Source: an uncultured Gammaproteobacteria bacterium
Lineage (GTDB): Bacteria; Pseudomonadota; Gammaproteobacteria; Nitrosococcales; Methylophagaceae
NCBI GenBank assembly: GCA_905479985.1
Contig: CAJQOM010000004.1
Coordinates: forward strand, 1 to 34,050
DNA length: 34,050 bases
Direction: 5' to 3'
In this document: positions 9,669 to 14,849 of the stretch, one piece after another
How positions within the stretch are numbered: the first letter of the stretch is position 1
Layout: every line of letters begins with the position of its first letter
Notes under the pieces: model-generated
What the model was told of the DNA's origin: nothing
Seen by the model: the letters and a program-made list of their open reading frames with translations, nothing else
Databases searched by the model: none
Program-made: the position numbers and the translations under genes

Positions 9669-11744
9669 TTAGAAGTCGACGTTGACGTTGACGTAAGCAC
9701 TACGTCCGAAGCCAGGTATTTTGTCGCCCATCGCAAGGTCAGTGTTACCACCGGCTCTATTGATTCCACCTAAGTGGCTAACATAGTAACGATCGAAAAG
9801 GTTATTGACGCCACCCATTAACGTAACAGCAGGTGTGACTTGGTATTGGCTGGAGATATTAAACAGCGCGTAACCCCCAGTTTTTTGTTCATTGTTTTCT
9901 GATGAAACTTTGTTCTGTCTAGCAACGGTTTCAGCTTCAACACTGACTTGCCAGTCAGGTTGTACATAAGTTAACGATGTGATCGCATTGAGTGGTGCGA
10001 TACGGTAAAGATCATCGCTAGTATCACGGCGTTCACCACGGACATAGCTGACGGTACCGGCTAATTGCCAGTCTGATGAAAGGGCTGCAGACCAGTTAGT
10101 ATCGATTCCGTATAACTTGGCATCGACATTACTGAATTTAAGCAGTGTTGATGGTGTGCCACCTAGCATTGTCGCGATGGCATTTGCCACCATTTGCTGT
10201 TGTGCGGTAGCATTTCCAGCAACGCCTTGGATGTAGTCATTGATGTGATGGTAGAAAATACGTGGTGAGATGGCAAACTTATGCGTATGCCAATCTAGAC
10301 CTAATTCAAACTGGTAAGCGACTTCATGATCTAAGTTGATATCACCGACATATTGCCTACCATCAGCTAAGCCACCTGTGCTTTGCAATGGAGCCCATAG
10401 GTAACGTTCTTGATAGCTTGGTGCGCGGGTTTTTCTGGCAAAGCCAATTTCGATATCAGCTTGTTGTGAAATTTCATGTGTGAAAGTGGCAAAGACATCG
10501 ACTAAGTCTTCATCTTGGCTAAGATCAGAGTTGTTAAAGTCAGTATTTAATGTCACTAGAGGTGCTGGTGTTCCTCCAAGGTCGGCATTGCCTGAATCCA
10601 TTTCCACACGGCTATAACGCAGGCCTGTTTCTACATTCCACCCTTGGGAAACGGCTCCTTTCCATTCAGCGAAGAGGCTGTACCTATCGCGTTCGGCATC
10701 TTTAAAATTTTCGATGAAGAAAGCTGCATTATTTGGATTGTAAATGGTTGCATTATGCTTTGCTTGATCTAAATCAAGACCAAACAACCAGTTCTGGTGT
10801 TGATAATGCAAACCAAAACCTTCGCCTTGTACTTCTGCAAAGACTTGTCGAGCCCTCGACGCTACGAGCCCATTCGAACGGTGTGAGAAATTATCCATTT
10901 CATGCTCAACATCTTGGTGATGTAATTTGATGGTGTAGTTATCGCCGTTATTCAAATAATCGGTGAAGCTACCTTTGATGTTCTCACCACGGAAGTAAAG
11001 AATGTCCATGGGTAATGCTGCTGTCCCTGTATCACCCATATCAAAATGTTCAATGTCAAGACCGATTGCTTTGCCACTGCCTTGGTAACCGTAGTGTAGT
11101 CCGACAGTATCTCTATCATGCTCACTTGAACGAACTCTGCCGCCGTCGAAGCTTTGATTATCGCCACGATCTGAACTACCTGTTAGTTGTAGTCTGTGAT
11201 GTTGATTAGTTATGGCTGTTGTTAGGTTCAATTGTCTGGTATTACCATTGCTAGCGTAAGCGGCATTAGCTGTACCATGCAGTTCTGCTTCTTCTGTTTG
11301 TCCGAAATCGAGTTTTTTTGAATTAGCAGAGATGGTACCGCCAATTGTTTCGATACCTGTTCGAACCGGTGCGATGCCCCTATATACAGCGACGTGATCC
11401 GTTCTAGATGCAGGTAAATAGCTTAGTGGAGAGTCCATGCTATTTGGACCTGCTTCGTGTTGGCTGAAGCCATCTAATACAACGTTAACACGGCGGCCAA
11501 ATAAGCCGCGGTATTGTGGAATGCTGGTGACGACACCATTACTGTTCACATTCGCACCAGGAAGACGCTTTATAAGTGCGCCGATGTCTGTCGATGCTGC
11601 AGGTACGGTAGGCAAAGCAAAAGGAATTTCTTCAGCTGATGCACCTTGTACTGACATAGAAGGTAGCGATATCGTTTCAGCATGAGCGACGGATAATGCC
11701 GTGGCTAATAGAAGGAGGAGGGGTAGCAATTTAAAATGTTTCAA
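9669..11744 (-). CDS. TonB-dependent outer-membrane receptor, OprC/NosA copper-receptor-like
   Basis: Outer-membrane beta-barrel that imports a scarce ligand using TonB energy; 691 aa. A signal peptide ends near A22, and a TonB-box-like ETISLPSMSV follows. The plug contains IPQYRGLFGRRVNVVLDGF and AGPNSMDSPLSYL (99-110), closely resembling the copper receptor OprC segment around CPNRMDAP. MDNF (283-286) and a histidine at 330 fall in places where I recall OprC's other copper ligands. The OprC cysteine position is G99 here while M103 is kept. The barrel ends with the beta-signal SAYVNVNVDF. The start is TTG, supported by AGGAG with 7-nt spacing and by the signal peptide. The receptor call is firm; copper as substrate is an inference. 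Confidence 0.88.
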   Translation of the reverse strand: MKHFKLLPLLLLLATALSVAHAETISLPSMSVQGASAEEIPFALPTVPAASTDIGALIKRLPGANVNSNGVVTSIPQYRGLFGRRVNVVLDGFSQHEAGPNSMDSPLSYLPASRTDHVAVYRGIAPVRTGIETIGGTISANSKKLDFGQTEEAELHGTANAAYASNGNTRQLNLTTAITNQHHRLQLTGSSDRGDNQSFDGGRVRSSEHDRDTVGLHYGYQGSGKAIGLDIEHFDMGDTGTAALPMDILYFRGENIKGSFTDYLNNGDNYTIKLHHQDVEHEMDNFSHRSNGLVASRARQVFAEVQGEGFGLHYQHQNWLFGLDLDQAKHNATIYNPNNAAFFIENFKDAERDRYSLFAEWKGAVSQGWNVETGLRYSRVEMDSGNADLGGTPAPLVTLNTDFNNSDLSQDEDLVDVFATFTHEISQQADIEIGFARKTRAPSYQERYLWAPLQSTGGLADGRQYVGDINLDHEVAYQFELGLDWHTHKFAISPRIFYHHINDYIQGVAGNATAQQQMVANAIATMLGGTPSTLLKFSNVDAKLYGIDTNWSAALSSDWQLAGTVSYVRGERRDTSDDLYRIAPLNAITSLTYVQPDWQVSVEAETVARQNKVSSENNEQKTGGYALFNISSQYQVTPAVTLMGGVNNLFDRYYVSHLGGINRAGGNTDLAMGDKIPGFGRSAYVNVNVDF

Positions 11745-11772
11745 AAGTGATCTCCTAACGGTTTATAGGTGA

Positions 11773-11778
11773 ATTATA
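11773..11778 (-). promoter_or_regulatory. Candidate -10 of the TonB receptor promoter
   Basis: On the minus strand this reads TATAAT, a perfect -10, 29 bp upstream of the TTG start. The -35 position (about 11796-11801, AATAAA on the minus strand) is poor, so an upstream activator would be expected. Confidence 0.5.
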
Positions 11779-11820
11779 GAATCGAGGAAAGACTTTTTAT
11801 TGTGTTTTTTAGAGATAAGT

Positions 11821-11849
11821 TGTGTCAAATGACACAGTTTTTGTCATTT
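11821..11849. promoter_or_regulatory. Two overlapping inverted repeats in the divergent promoter
   Basis: Dyad 1 is TGTGTCA (11821-11827), AA, TGACACA (11830-11836). This is TGTG-N8-CACA, the spacing of CRP-family sites. Dyad 2 is AAATGACA (11827-11834), a 7-bp spacer, and TGTCATTT (11842-11849), sharing its left arm with dyad 1. If transcription of the receptor starts about 7 bp after its TATAAT, dyad 1 is centred near -62, the classic class-I activator position. TTGTCA at 11841-11846 could be a -35 for the rightward gene. The regulator is unknown. Confidence 0.6.
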
Positions 11850-11903
11850 TCGCCATGTTATTGTACTAAGTAGTTAATTTTTCAATTATTTAGGATTAGT
11901 GTC

Positions 11904-12635
11904 ATGGAAGCCATCACAGGTTCCTATATAACGGCTTTTTTATTAGGGCTTTTTAGTACAGTGCATTGTTTGGCGATGTGCGGTTCAGTTATTGGTGCGT
12001 TGACATTGAGTTTGCCGGTTGAGGTGCGTGAGAGTCAACGGAAAATGTTGCCTTATGTGTTCAATTATAATTTGGGCCGTATTTTAAGTTATACGATGGC
12101 GGGGGCGATTGTTGGTCTGTTAAGTTCTCCTTTAGCGACGATCGATGGCCATACATTTTTACGTTATTTATCGATTGTGGTGATGATCGGGATGGGCCTT
12201 TATTTAGCCGGCTGGTTTCCAAAGTTTGCCAAAATGGAAAGTTTGGGGGCACCAATATGGCGCTGGTTGCAACCTATTGGTCAGAAGTTTTTACCCGTTA
12301 AGGCATTTTCACAAGCTTTTTGGTTAGGTATGGTTTGGGGTTGGCTGCCTTGTGGCTTGGTCTATGCCGCCTTAGCAGTAGCCGCTACGGTGGGTGATCC
12401 GGTTAAAGCGTCATTGGTGATGTTGTCATTTGGGTTAGGGACGTTACCGGCTGTCATGGGCGCCGGGATGTTTACGGGTTTATTGGCATCATTAGCGCGT
12501 GCAAAGCATATGCGGAAAATAGCCGGTGTGTCGATTATCGTGATGGCTTTAATGACGTTACTTTTGCCTCACCAACATATGGCTGAGCAGCATGATATTG
12601 AGTTTCATCACATTAACGATGAGGCAACAAAATGA
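11904..12635 (+). CDS. TauE/SafE (DsbD_2-like) membrane protein with His-rich tail
   Basis: Polytopic inner-membrane protein of 243 aa with about six transmembrane segments. It belongs to the group annotated as sulfite exporter TauE/SafE or cytochrome-biogenesis DsbD_2/UreH_2. Characteristic motifs are VHCLAMCGSVIGALTLSL near residues 20-37, with two cysteines and a methionine in a membrane helix, and GWLPCGLVYAALAVAAT in the second half. The C-terminus HQHMAEQHDIEFHH is histidine-rich and looks metal-binding. Relatives often sit near cbb3 oxidase assembly genes and have been linked to copper supply, but substrate transport here is unproven. The sulfite label should not be taken literally. 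Its TGA overlaps the next gene by 4 bp (ATGA), so the two are co-translated. Confidence 0.85.
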   Translation: MEAITGSYITAFLLGLFSTVHCLAMCGSVIGALTLSLPVEVRESQRKMLPYVFNYNLGRILSYTMAGAIVGLLSSPLATIDGHTFLRYLSIVVMIGMGLYLAGWFPKFAKMESLGAPIWRWLQPIGQKFLPVKAFSQAFWLGMVWGWLPCGLVYAALAVAATVGDPVKASLVMLSFGLGTLPAVMGAGMFTGLLASLARAKHMRKIAGVSIIVMALMTLLLPHQHMAEQHDIEFHHINDEATK

Positions 12636-13555
12636 TTAAGGGTATTTTAGGACAGTCTCCTGAGTTAATGCATCTGTTGCGGACGTTGCCGATGATTGCA
12701 TTGAGTGATGCCAGTGTTTTGATTCAAGGTGAGACTGGTACAGGCAAGGAGCTGATTGCTCAAGCCTTGCATTTTGAAAGCCGGAGAAAAGACAAGCCGC
12801 TGGTGACGATAAATTGTGCTGCCTTGCCGGAAGATAATATTGAGGCCGATTTATTTGGTCAATGTAATGTGACGGGTGAGGTGATACACCGCGGTCGTTT
12901 ATTAGCGGCAGAAGGCGGGACGGTATTTTTTGATAATGTTGAGTCTTTGCCGCAATCTGTTCAAGCAAAAGTGCTGCGTTTTTTAGAAGCGGGCGAATGT
13001 CAATTGCAAGGGTGTCACAAATTACAGATTGTCGATGTTCGTATCATTGCTGCCAGTAGCGCTGACTTGCAGCATTTGGCCGATATTGGACGGTTCAGAC
13101 GAGATTTGTTTTATCGTTTGCAAGTTGTGCCGTTGACGGTATCTGCTTTGCGAGATCGGGCAGATGATATTCTGATGTTATTACGTCATTTTGGCCGTGA
13201 GTTTGCAGGCAGTAATGCCGTGGTGCGTTATAGCAAGCAAGCCGAACACTGTTTGTTGACTTATGCTTGGCAGGGTAATGTTCGAGAACTTATGAATTTT
13301 TGCCAGAGAATGGCTTTATTATATCCTGGCAAGGCAATTCAGCCTGATGATTTACCACCAGAAATGATGCCAGAAGTGGCTGCTGGTAACCAGGTTTTTA
13401 CCTTACCGCCAACGGGGATAAAATTGGCGCAGGTTGAATTAGATTTGATTGAGCAGGCACTTGAGATGGCGTCGGGTAACCGTTCGAAAGCAGCGAGGTT
13501 ACTGGGTATTAGCCGTGACACGTTGCTTTATAGGATGCAAAAACACGCGCTCTAG
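12632..13555 (+). CDS. Degenerate sigma54-activator-like AAA+ / Fis-type DNA-binding protein
   Basis: 307-aa protein consisting of a bacterial enhancer-binding AAA+ domain and a C-terminal Fis-type helix-turn-helix, with no N-terminal sensory domain. Walker A is intact (GETGTGKE, 33-40). The arginine-finger region GRFRRDLFYRLQVVPL (153-168) and the helix-turn-helix NRSKAARLLGISRDTLLYRM (283-302) are clear. The sigma54-contacting GAFTGA loop is missing: after DLFG (73-76) the sequence reads QCNVTGE and is about three residues short. Walker B reads VFFDNV, with N102 where catalytic Glu is expected. It is therefore unlikely to activate sigma54 and may act as a DNA-binding repressor or a sigma70-type regulator, as TyrR-like proteins do. 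It overlaps the TauE/SafE gene by 4 bp. Confidence 0.88.
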   Translation: MIKGILGQSPELMHLLRTLPMIALSDASVLIQGETGTGKELIAQALHFESRRKDKPLVTINCAALPEDNIEADLFGQCNVTGEVIHRGRLLAAEGGTVFFDNVESLPQSVQAKVLRFLEAGECQLQGCHKLQIVDVRIIAASSADLQHLADIGRFRRDLFYRLQVVPLTVSALRDRADDILMLLRHFGREFAGSNAVVRYSKQAEHCLLTYAWQGNVRELMNFCQRMALLYPGKAIQPDDLPPEMMPEVAAGNQVFTLPPTGIKLAQVELDLIEQALEMASGNRSKAARLLGISRDTLLYRMQKHAL

Positions 13556-13593: not shown

Positions 13594-14427
13594 ATGAAGC
13601 AGTATCTAGCGTTGTTACAAGATGTGATGGATAACGGTGTTGAGAAAGGCGACCGGACAGGAACGGGGACGCGTTCAGTGATGGGCCGTCAAGTGCGTTA
13701 TGATCTTGCTGAAGGGTTTCCTTTATTAACCACTAAAAAGTTACATATCCGCAGTATCTTGCATGAACTGCTCTGGTTTTTGAGTGGTGAAACGAATATT
13801 AAATATTTGCAGGATAATGGTGTCTCTATCTGGAATGCTTGGGCAACGGAATCAGGCGAATTAGGGCCGGTTTATGGCGCACAATGGCGTCGTTGGCAGG
13901 GGGCTGATGGTCAAGTCTTTGATCAAGTGACTGCCTTAGTCGAAGGTCTGAAAAATAATCCAGATAGCCGACGTCATATTATCAGTGGTTGGAATGTTGC
14001 CCTGTTGCCCGATGAATCAAAAAAGCCATGGGAAAATGCGGAGGCTGGTTTGATGGCATTACCACCATGTCATCTGCTTTATCAATTTTATGTGGCCAAC
14101 GGTAAATTGAGCGCGTCTTTGTATATTCGTTCGAATGATTTGTTTTTAGGCAATCCATATAATACGGCCTCACTCGCTTTTCTGACGCATATGTTGGCAC
14201 AGCAATGTGATTTAGAGGTGGGTGAAATTGTGATGAGTATCGGGGACGCGCATATCTATACCAATCATTTTGAGCAAGTGGCAACACAGTTGAGTCGAAC
14301 GCCAGGTGCGTTACCGAGGCTGGTCATCAAACGGAAGCCGGACTCAATTTTTGATTATCAATTTGATGATTTTGAGATTGTTGATTATGTGTCACAGCCA
14401 CATATAGCGGCACCTATTGCTGTGTAG
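13594..14427 (+). CDS. thyA: Thymidylate synthase ThyA
   Basis: Converts dUMP to dTMP using methylene-tetrahydrofolate, in the cytoplasm. 277 aa, slightly longer than the 264 aa of E. coli. Motifs run in order: [13 protein letters not shown], the active-site region [12 protein letters not shown] with nucleophile C159, [17 protein letters not shown], the dUMP-binding HIYTNH, and [17 protein letters not shown] short insertion (about residues 139-152, [14 protein letters not shown]) precedes the catalytic cysteine; I recall similar inserts in other gammaproteobacterial ThyA proteins. The ATG follows AGGTGG (13585-13590). It is 38 bp after the regulator gene, and probably shares transcription with the hemerythrin downstream. 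Confidence 0.97.
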
Positions 14428-14450: not shown

Positions 14451-14849
14451 ATGGGAAAACCACTGTATTTGAGCTGGCAGGACGAATTTTCGCAAGATGA
14501 TGGGCATATTATTGATGAGCAACATCGGGGGGTACTTGCTTCGATTAATTCTTTGCATTATTTCTTACAACAAGGACATGGCATAGAAGCTTTATTGCCA
14601 ACGGCAAAAATTGTGTTGCAATACCTGCAATTTCACGCGAAGACCGAGGAAGGGATTCTACGGGATGCGGGTTATGGCGAGATTGAGCAATTTATAAAAC
14701 AGGCCGCTCAGGATGTTACAGCCTATAAAGAGGCTTGTCGTGAAGCAATAACACATCAAGATCCCCTTTTTTTGTTGATTTTTTTACGAGACTGGTGGTC
14801 GCGGCATTTGGAAGATCATAAAAATTTTACTGTTTATTTAAACGACTGA
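14451..14849 (+). CDS. Hemerythrin-like protein with incomplete diiron site
   Basis: 132-aa single-domain protein with the four-helix layout of bacteriohemerythrins. Recognisable parts are W9, IDEQHRGVLASIN (H25), QFHAKTEEGIL (H62 and E66), and DWWSRHL (H119). In a normal hemerythrin the next helix carries HxxxH after GYP; here GYGEIEQFIKQA has F81 and A85 instead. The final D after HIxxxD is K124. So about four of seven iron ligands remain, and oxygen binding by a normal diiron centre is doubtful. It may bind one metal, or have become a structural or sensory domain. The SD is a GGAGAAAAGGA stretch just before the ATG. It lies 23 bp after thyA and converges on radC with a 3-bp gap. Confidence 0.85.
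   Translation: MGKPLYLSWQDEFSQDDGHIIDEQHRGVLASINSLHYFLQQGHGIEALLPTAKIVLQYLQFHAKTEEGILRDAGYGEIEQFIKQAAQDVTAYKEACREAITHQDPLFLLIFLRDWWSRHLEDHKNFTVYLND

Follow-up and report, generated by a model that had tools for sequence, protein, structure and literature searches.

VpsR of Vibrio cholerae and TyrR are regulators with the bEBP fold that act without sigma54 and carry other N-terminal domains and ligands, and PspF is a bEBP without an N-terminal sensor. PspF keeps both GAFTGA and DE and is described as a sigma54 activator (PMC7175178). The NtrC proteins of Rhodobacter capsulatus and Caulobacter have no GAFTGA and are described as acting at sigma70 promoters, the former needing ATP binding rather than hydrolysis and the latter reportedly both (PMC10274813). 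How bEBPs leave sigma54, and what the ATPase then does, is an unsettled question. With regard to copper, the TonB-PepSY pair of Bordetella (CrtA, CrpH) is described as taking up copper for heme-copper oxidases (PMC12914433, PMC13038864), the first of these sources calling copper acquisition pathways poorly characterised, and a CsoR copper meta-regulon is described as including COG2836 proteins that have HMA and DsbD_2 domains (PMC4938975). Literature searches for a copper-linked bEBP or regulator, and for GAFTGA together with Methylophaga, returned no description of the protein presented below at title and abstract level.

The window, that is, the whole stretch of DNA analysed (34,050 nucleotides), carries this protein, the gene ahead of it and a divergent receptor gene, as follows.

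9669 to 11744, minus strand: divergent TonB-dependent receptor; best NCBIfam match TonB-copper TIGR01778 at 195 bits, under the cut-off of 472.
11904 to 12635, plus strand: DsbD_2-family membrane protein gene, co-directional partner of the regulator; Pfam DsbD_2 (PF13386) at 172 bits.
12632 to 13555, plus strand: GAFTGA-less, sensor-less bEBP-type regulator, 307 aa; AAA+ 5-168, lid 174-249, Fis-type HTH 265-305.
12860 to 12880, plus strand: shortened L1 region QCNVTGE, residues 77-83; a conserved [ND]xxG turn, predicted as a short beta-hairpin, replaces GAFTGA.
12935 to 12937, plus strand: codon of Walker B N102; E in 44/51 family members.

The Pfam search of the regulator gave Sigma54_activat (162 bits), AAA_lid_14 and HTH_8 and no domain before residue 5, hence no sensor domain. 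In the alignment with ZraR, LFGQCN--VTGE stands in place of LFGHEKGAFTGA, and FFDN is found where ZraR reads FLDE. An earlier note on this DNA had described a protein with no GAFTGA, DN in Walker B and no sensor domain, and these two comparisons bear it out. Of the features of a sigma54-activating bEBP, the regulator thus has a Sigma54_activat AAA+ domain with intact Walker A, FRRDLFYRL (which we take to be the R-finger region) and GNVRE (presumably sensor II), and it lacks the GAFTGA loop and the Walker B DE. The family alignment puts its sigma54-contact loop three residues short of that of the sister-family orthologues. An AlphaFold2 model (mean pLDDT 90, input alignment of 25 sequences) has a predicted short hairpin (strands 76-78 and 84-87) at the place of the bEBP L1 loop; the nearest solved folds are the AAA+ domains of FleQ, NtrX and NtrC1 (Z 29.9-31.0), with PspF crystal structures aligning at Z up to 28.2 and VpsR at Z 27.8. 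RpoN is encoded in the window's own genome, as are six other Sigma54_activat proteins (233-256 bits).

Orthologues were searched for in 63 genomes of the order and found at E <= 1e-65 in 57, namely in 51 of the 57 genomes of the window's family and in all six of its sister family. GAFTGA is absent and the loop three residues shorter in 51/51 orthologues of the family, all of which read LFG-x-x-[ND]-x-x-G with [ND]79 and G82 kept; all six orthologues of the sister family keep GAFSGA. Of the 51, 44 have DE in Walker B and seven have DN, and the sister family has DE in 6/6, which rules out N102 as a family feature. Invariant in 57/57 are K39, R156, R162, G215, N216 and R218 and, in the HTH, N283, R284, A287, A288, R295, D296 and T297. 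In a tree of 83 proteins the loopless set forms one clade (100/100), in which the DN set is nested as one clade (97/96). The ratio dN/dS is 0.029 for the pair G000-G003, at a dS of 1.5 that is near saturation, and 0.025-0.058 in six further pairs whose dS was usable (one from the sister family), dS being saturated in four more pairs of the DN clade; judged by these ratios, the regulator is under strong purifying selection. Loop loss in 51/51 under such selection agrees with the earlier note's view that the protein was repurposed away from sigma54, and, the replacement turn being shared, the loss is not local decay. The further supposition that the protein hardly hydrolyses ATP is not supported as a general rule, because DE in 44/51 and R156 and R162 in 51/51 indicate continued selection on the catalytic machinery in most of the family; DN is confined to the window's own subclade. 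Of the two changes whose conservation the earlier note wanted checked in orthologues, loop loss is family-wide and N102 is not.

The class-level search gave a match at E <= 1e-72 in 54 of 370 genomes, four of them belonging to the window's family, and 26 loci were examined. The loop is of full length in all 26 (GAFTGA, GSFTGA, GAFSGA, GAFTSA, GSFTSA or GAFTDA), and Walker B is DE in 25; the remaining one, L133, has a GAFTGA-like loop and DK. Orthologues with both a GAFTGA-type loop and DE, which the earlier note would have held against repurposing, are therefore found outside the family (here and in 6/6 of the sister family) and nowhere inside it, and they date the change rather than refute it. 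No more than 58 open codons precede the match in 22 of the 26 loci, which makes a sensor domain improbable in them; longer upstream frames occur in L116, L121, L136 and L141. A DsbD_2 gene lies within the short flanks of 16 of the 26. Taken with the patterns in the two families, these loci indicate that the absence of a sensor domain in this bEBP lineage is probably old, and, as read from the alignments, that loop loss is an event of the window's family and N102 the latest step, a trait of one subclade. A separate scan with peptide patterns that were too general kept 80 loci, many of them bEBPs of other phyla, among which were two Methylococcales at 49%.

The start of the regulator gene overlaps the stop of 11904-12635 by 4 bp. 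The latter had been labelled TauE/SafE in the earlier note, a name that gives way to DsbD_2 by Pfam; we take its product to be COG2836-like. The suggestion that the regulator acts on this locus is supported as regards a link to it: in 57/57 genomes the regulator gene is preceded by a DsbD_2 gene of the same orientation, and conserved boxes occur inside 11745-11903, the interval proposed for footprinting. By matched ends the two genes are at most 159 bp apart, G026 with about 1.1 kb being the one exception; the DsbD_2 copy of G019 is cut by a contig end. The divergent TonB receptor was matched at 45/51 loci of the family, the others being G018, G052, G053, G055, G066 and G019, where the main contig has no TonB receptor match and a second contig has one. 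Ten of the 45 have, opposite the conserved promoter, a receptor of a distant type with 27-31% identity. On the other side of the regulator, thyA (13594-14427) is 82-97% identical in some relatives, and in its place in most others identity is about 28-35% (41 and 64% in two); two types of thymidylate synthase seem, on these identities, to have been exchanged near the regulator. The protein of 14451-14849 is hemerythrin-like (25.1 bits against a Pfam cut-off of 25.3).

The interval between the two divergent genes holds the following elements.

11773 to 11778, minus strand: -10 (TATAAT) of the divergent TonB receptor gene; 11773, 11777 and 11778 invariant in 23/23 genus loci.
11801 to 11810, plus strand: box L, TGTGTTTTTT; TGTGTTTTWT by genus consensus; box R follows 20 bp downstream.
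11821 to 11836, plus strand: box R, TGTGTCAAATGACACA, candidate operator from a phylogenetic footprint; 0 mismatches here; centred near -42 relative to the start inferred for the 11904 operon.
11856 to 11864, plus strand: extended -10 of the 11904 operon, TGTTATTGT (TGnTAnnnT); 48/50 family upstream regions.

Over the 23 loci of the genus the interval aligns with few gaps across TGTGTTTTWT (11801-11810), TGTGTGAAATRACNCA (11821-11836) and CATGnTAnTnT (11854-11864), with TANAAT on the minus strand at 11773-11778 for the TonB gene; L021 is one base short between box R and the -10, and small gaps occur ahead of box L in L007 and L019. With starts inferred at about 11871 for the operon and about 11766 for the TonB gene, box R lies near -42 and near -62, respectively, and a TTGACA-like -35 was not seen at either promoter. 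The extended -10 is missed in the family by G048 and G062, is present in G019 as read from its second contig, and occurs in 0/6 upstream regions of the sister family. At the aligned place, box R differs from TGTGTSANNTSACACA by at most three mismatches in 47/51 family loci; the exceptions are G018 with four mismatches (and a decayed box L), G049 and G059 with five, and G048 with eight, a count that is mis-anchored, as a site with three mismatches to TGTGTGAAATGACACA is present there. Among the sister-family genomes, only G028 and G029 have a similar core, GTGATTTGAC, ahead of the gene, as seen by eye.

Scored with what we took to be the sigma54 GG-N10-GC consensus and its weights, the best site in the 260 bp before 11904 reaches 0.64 of the maximum, and no such promoter is conserved in the family; its best score is 0.82 (G071), and the sites of G023, G049 and G071 (0.79-0.82) overlap the extended -10. 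In the sister family only G027 and G030 score well (0.86). By eye, an extended -10 seems to precede the DsbD_2 gene in several GAFTGA-bearing class-level relatives, so that the sigma70 promoter may predate the loss of the loop, and a switch from sigma54 to sigma70 simultaneous with that loss is unsupported.

Boxes were also sought elsewhere. In the 57 genomes of the family, TGTGTSANNTSACACA at no more than one mismatch occurs at 92 sites, against 27 for the reversed pattern; the home site accounts for 24 and the other 68 lie elsewhere. The looser pattern TGTGTSAAATRACNCA at no more than two mismatches is mildly enriched (649 against 449 reversed, 29 genomes). Six early off-locus boxes comprise two before TonB receptors (one of these, by eye, a paralogue of the window's receptor), one before a PepSY_TM gene, two beyond a gene we take to be lysC and one that is intragenic; family models confirmed the PepSY gene and one TonB receptor. 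The boxed TonB paralogue of G003 (L175:5969-8031) is in two overlapping open frames, a possible frameshift. Twenty further sites were hand-picked among the matches listed, mostly for AT-rich centres: eight stand before pseudoazurin-like genes, four before TonB receptors, one before nosR and one beyond lysC, and six are intragenic. Near these 20, Pfam confirmed all four TonB receptors as well as a DUF1775 protein (L190) and a cupredoxin (L185, PF00127), L181 is NosR by family model, and the remaining genes were named by eye; the cupredoxins L185 and L178 score 67-68 bits against the pseudoazurin model, whose cut-off is 110. All eight boxed pseudoazurin-like genes adjoin a presumably Rieske-like gene, and at two of the four TonB receptors the box lies in the interval after a DUF1775-type gene. 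The nosR gene was set aside as a target, its box overlapping TTGACnnnnGTCAA repeats that look to us DNR/FNR-like. Palindromes like TGTGTSANNTSACACA stand just past the 3' end of lysC in L177, L079 and L080, perhaps before csrA.

A pseudoazurin match is present in 47 of the 57 genomes, 43 of which were examined (G017, G040, G063 and G070 were left out). Among 30 orthologues chosen by protein similarity, 21 have a box with at most three mismatches upstream, at -199 to -204 in 18 of the 21, compared with 0/29 control stretches downstream of the gene. Five of the 21 (G048, G053, G054, G055 and G056) were known beforehand and one of these supplied the query; without them the count is 16/25. Thirteen further genomes gave six boxes, three of them (G049, G057, G059) known beforehand. 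The box is absent in nine of the 30 and in seven of the 13, including the regulator-bearing G044 and G045, and it is present in G057, G058 and G060, which are incomplete and gave no regulator match. Judged by eye from a TATAGT, it stands near -61. No pseudoazurin match was found in the window's own genome or in the other six DN genomes, and Walker B DN and pseudoazurin loss thus coincide in all seven.

Some relatives were considered as natural experiments. G046, a relative of 1.1 Mb and 100% completeness, has kept the DsbD_2 gene (64% identity), and neither the regulator, rpoN nor an intact CRP-family protein was found in it. TGnTAnnnT is kept as TGTTATTAT at -44, and box R is lost (7/16 mismatches at the aligned place, six at best anywhere upstream). 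This is a single event in an AT-rich reduced genome, in which five TGnTAnnnT matches within 260 bp mean that the -10 proves little. Its pseudoazurin is uninformative as a second natural experiment, since the sisters G044 and G045, with the regulator, are also without a box there. G013, G040 and G063, which have the regulator and no rpoN match, were not accepted as proof of sigma54 independence, being only 82-89% complete. In G008 the DNA-binding domain of rpoN is found in two matches in different open frames (C17:15684-16156), a possible frameshift.

On balance, and with considerable reserve, we favour the reading that the regulator is a sigma54-independent bEBP derivative acting at the sigma70 promoters of a copper-like regulon. 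From the computed conservation, linkage, footprint and box association we infer DNA binding by the regulator, a copper signal and activation. An NtrC/ZraR-type AAA+ protein with a Fis HTH would have ceased to act on sigma54-RNA polymerase, its sigma54-contact loop having been lost once in the window's family in exchange for a tight conserved turn, and one subclade would later have lost the catalytic Walker B glutamate as well. The regulator most likely binds the TGTGT boxes beside sigma70-type promoters; its targets would be its own operon (the DsbD_2 gene and itself) and the TonB receptor gene that diverges from it, joined in relatives by genes for pseudoazurin, PepSY and additional TonB receptors, putatively genes of copper acquisition and copper proteins. 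Boxes near -42, -62 and -61 of the inferred starts, together with a -35 that is weak or absent, suggest that ordinary RNA polymerase is activated through contact, and the evidence of box position and missing -35 leans to activation over repression. The signal would probably be copper limitation, and nucleotide binding, with hydrolysis in DE members, may serve oligomerisation. Counted against this reading are the weak boxes of the regulator-bearing G018, G049 and G059, the CRP-site length of box R, the extended -10 elements of GAFTGA-bearing class-level relatives, the pseudoazurin genes that lack a box or have one in a genome with no regulator match, the absence of that pseudoazurin from all seven DN genomes and the retention of rpoN in the window's own genome. 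Cys123 (51/51 in the family, 6/6 in the sister family, 18/26 class-level loci) and Cys224 (49/51, 6/6 and 25/26) are candidate ligands. A fuller version, in which a sensor-less, sigma54-free regulator of copper acquisition would sense Cu(I) or redox state in the AAA+ ring through these two cysteines, and in which the series GAFTGA+DE, [ND]xxG+DE, [ND]xxG+DN would mark sigma54 contact and then ATP hydrolysis becoming dispensable, is speculative and, taken whole, improbable.

The main rival, which we consider unlikely, is that the boxes are owned by a CRP/Vfr-family activator, the bEBP-like protein regulating something else or co-regulating. Box R has the form TGTG-N8-CACA and the length of a CRP site, the positions near -42 and -62 are CRP-like, and the window's own genome encodes one HTH_Crp_2 (CRP/Vfr-like) protein with a CRP-like recognition helix. 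However, by the CRP consensus as we take it to be, A and T are wanted at the fifth positions, whereas box R has T at its fifth base and A at the mirror position in 23/23 genus loci, and its centre AAAT is nearly invariant where the N6 of CRP sites is free. The boxed operon, moreover, holds the partner of the bEBP gene in 57/57 genomes. G018 (1.5 Mb), with no HTH_Crp_2 match, has kept the regulator and 12/16 bases of box R, which moderately favours the regulator as the owner of the box.

It is possible, if doubtful, that the regulator is instead a nucleotide-locked repressor, ATP being bound and not hydrolysed and an oligomer on the boxes blocking RNA polymerase. The seven subclade members with DN have intact Walker A and R-finger arginines, and the boxes abut the promoters. 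Against this, 44/51 family members have DE, mostly with the same boxes, so that locking would not be the general mechanism, and promoters without a -35 would be more usual among activated ones. That the regulator joins hexamers of other bEBPs and poisons or tunes sigma54 activation is very improbable: RpoN and the six other Sigma54_activat proteins would offer partners, but its own conserved HTH, the candidate boxes and the fixed gene partner point to a dedicated regulator. A functionless, decaying bEBP gene, for which the loss of two signature motifs might speak, is hardly credible with dN/dS at about 0.03, one replacement turn conserved in 51/51 and retention in small genomes such as that of G018, and decay of this single gene is ruled out by family-wide loop loss and purifying selection.

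If the preferred reading, a sigma54-independent regulator at sigma70 promoters, is set beside the known systems, the closest include the class-level bEBPs (L116-L141) beside DsbD_2 genes, which are about 47-52% identical to the regulator and mostly have no room for a sensor of usual size; they differ from it in their GAFTGA-like loop (26/26) and DE (25/26). With the sigma70-acting GAFTGA-less bEBPs of the NtrC, TyrR and VpsR type it shares the bEBP fold without GAFTGA, and unlike them it has no N-terminal sensory or receiver domain. The NtrC proteins of R. capsulatus and Caulobacter are described, in contrast to the regulator, with a receiver domain and phosphorylation site, other loop deletions and a role in nitrogen control. 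Action at sigma70 promoters is described for the NtrC type; the corresponding observation here is a conserved extended -10 with adjacent boxes. The Bordetella CrtA/CrpH operon offers the same set of TonB receptor and PepSY_TM genes as is found behind boxes here, but its first gene is cruR, indicating copper regulation (PMC12914433); no bEBP relative is mentioned in the accessible text of PMC12914433 and PMC13038864. The NtrC precedents in Caulobacter and R. capsulatus mean that the GAFTGA-less, sigma70-acting kind is already known. New here are the lack of a sensor, the conserved turn that takes the place of the loop, the loss of first the loop and then the catalytic residue, and a gene set of copper-like character. 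With one loop loss in 51 proteins and a later catalytic change in seven, mostly with the same boxes, the role of hydrolysis becomes testable on natural proteins, and, if the copper link holds, the regulator is a candidate regulator of copper acquisition.
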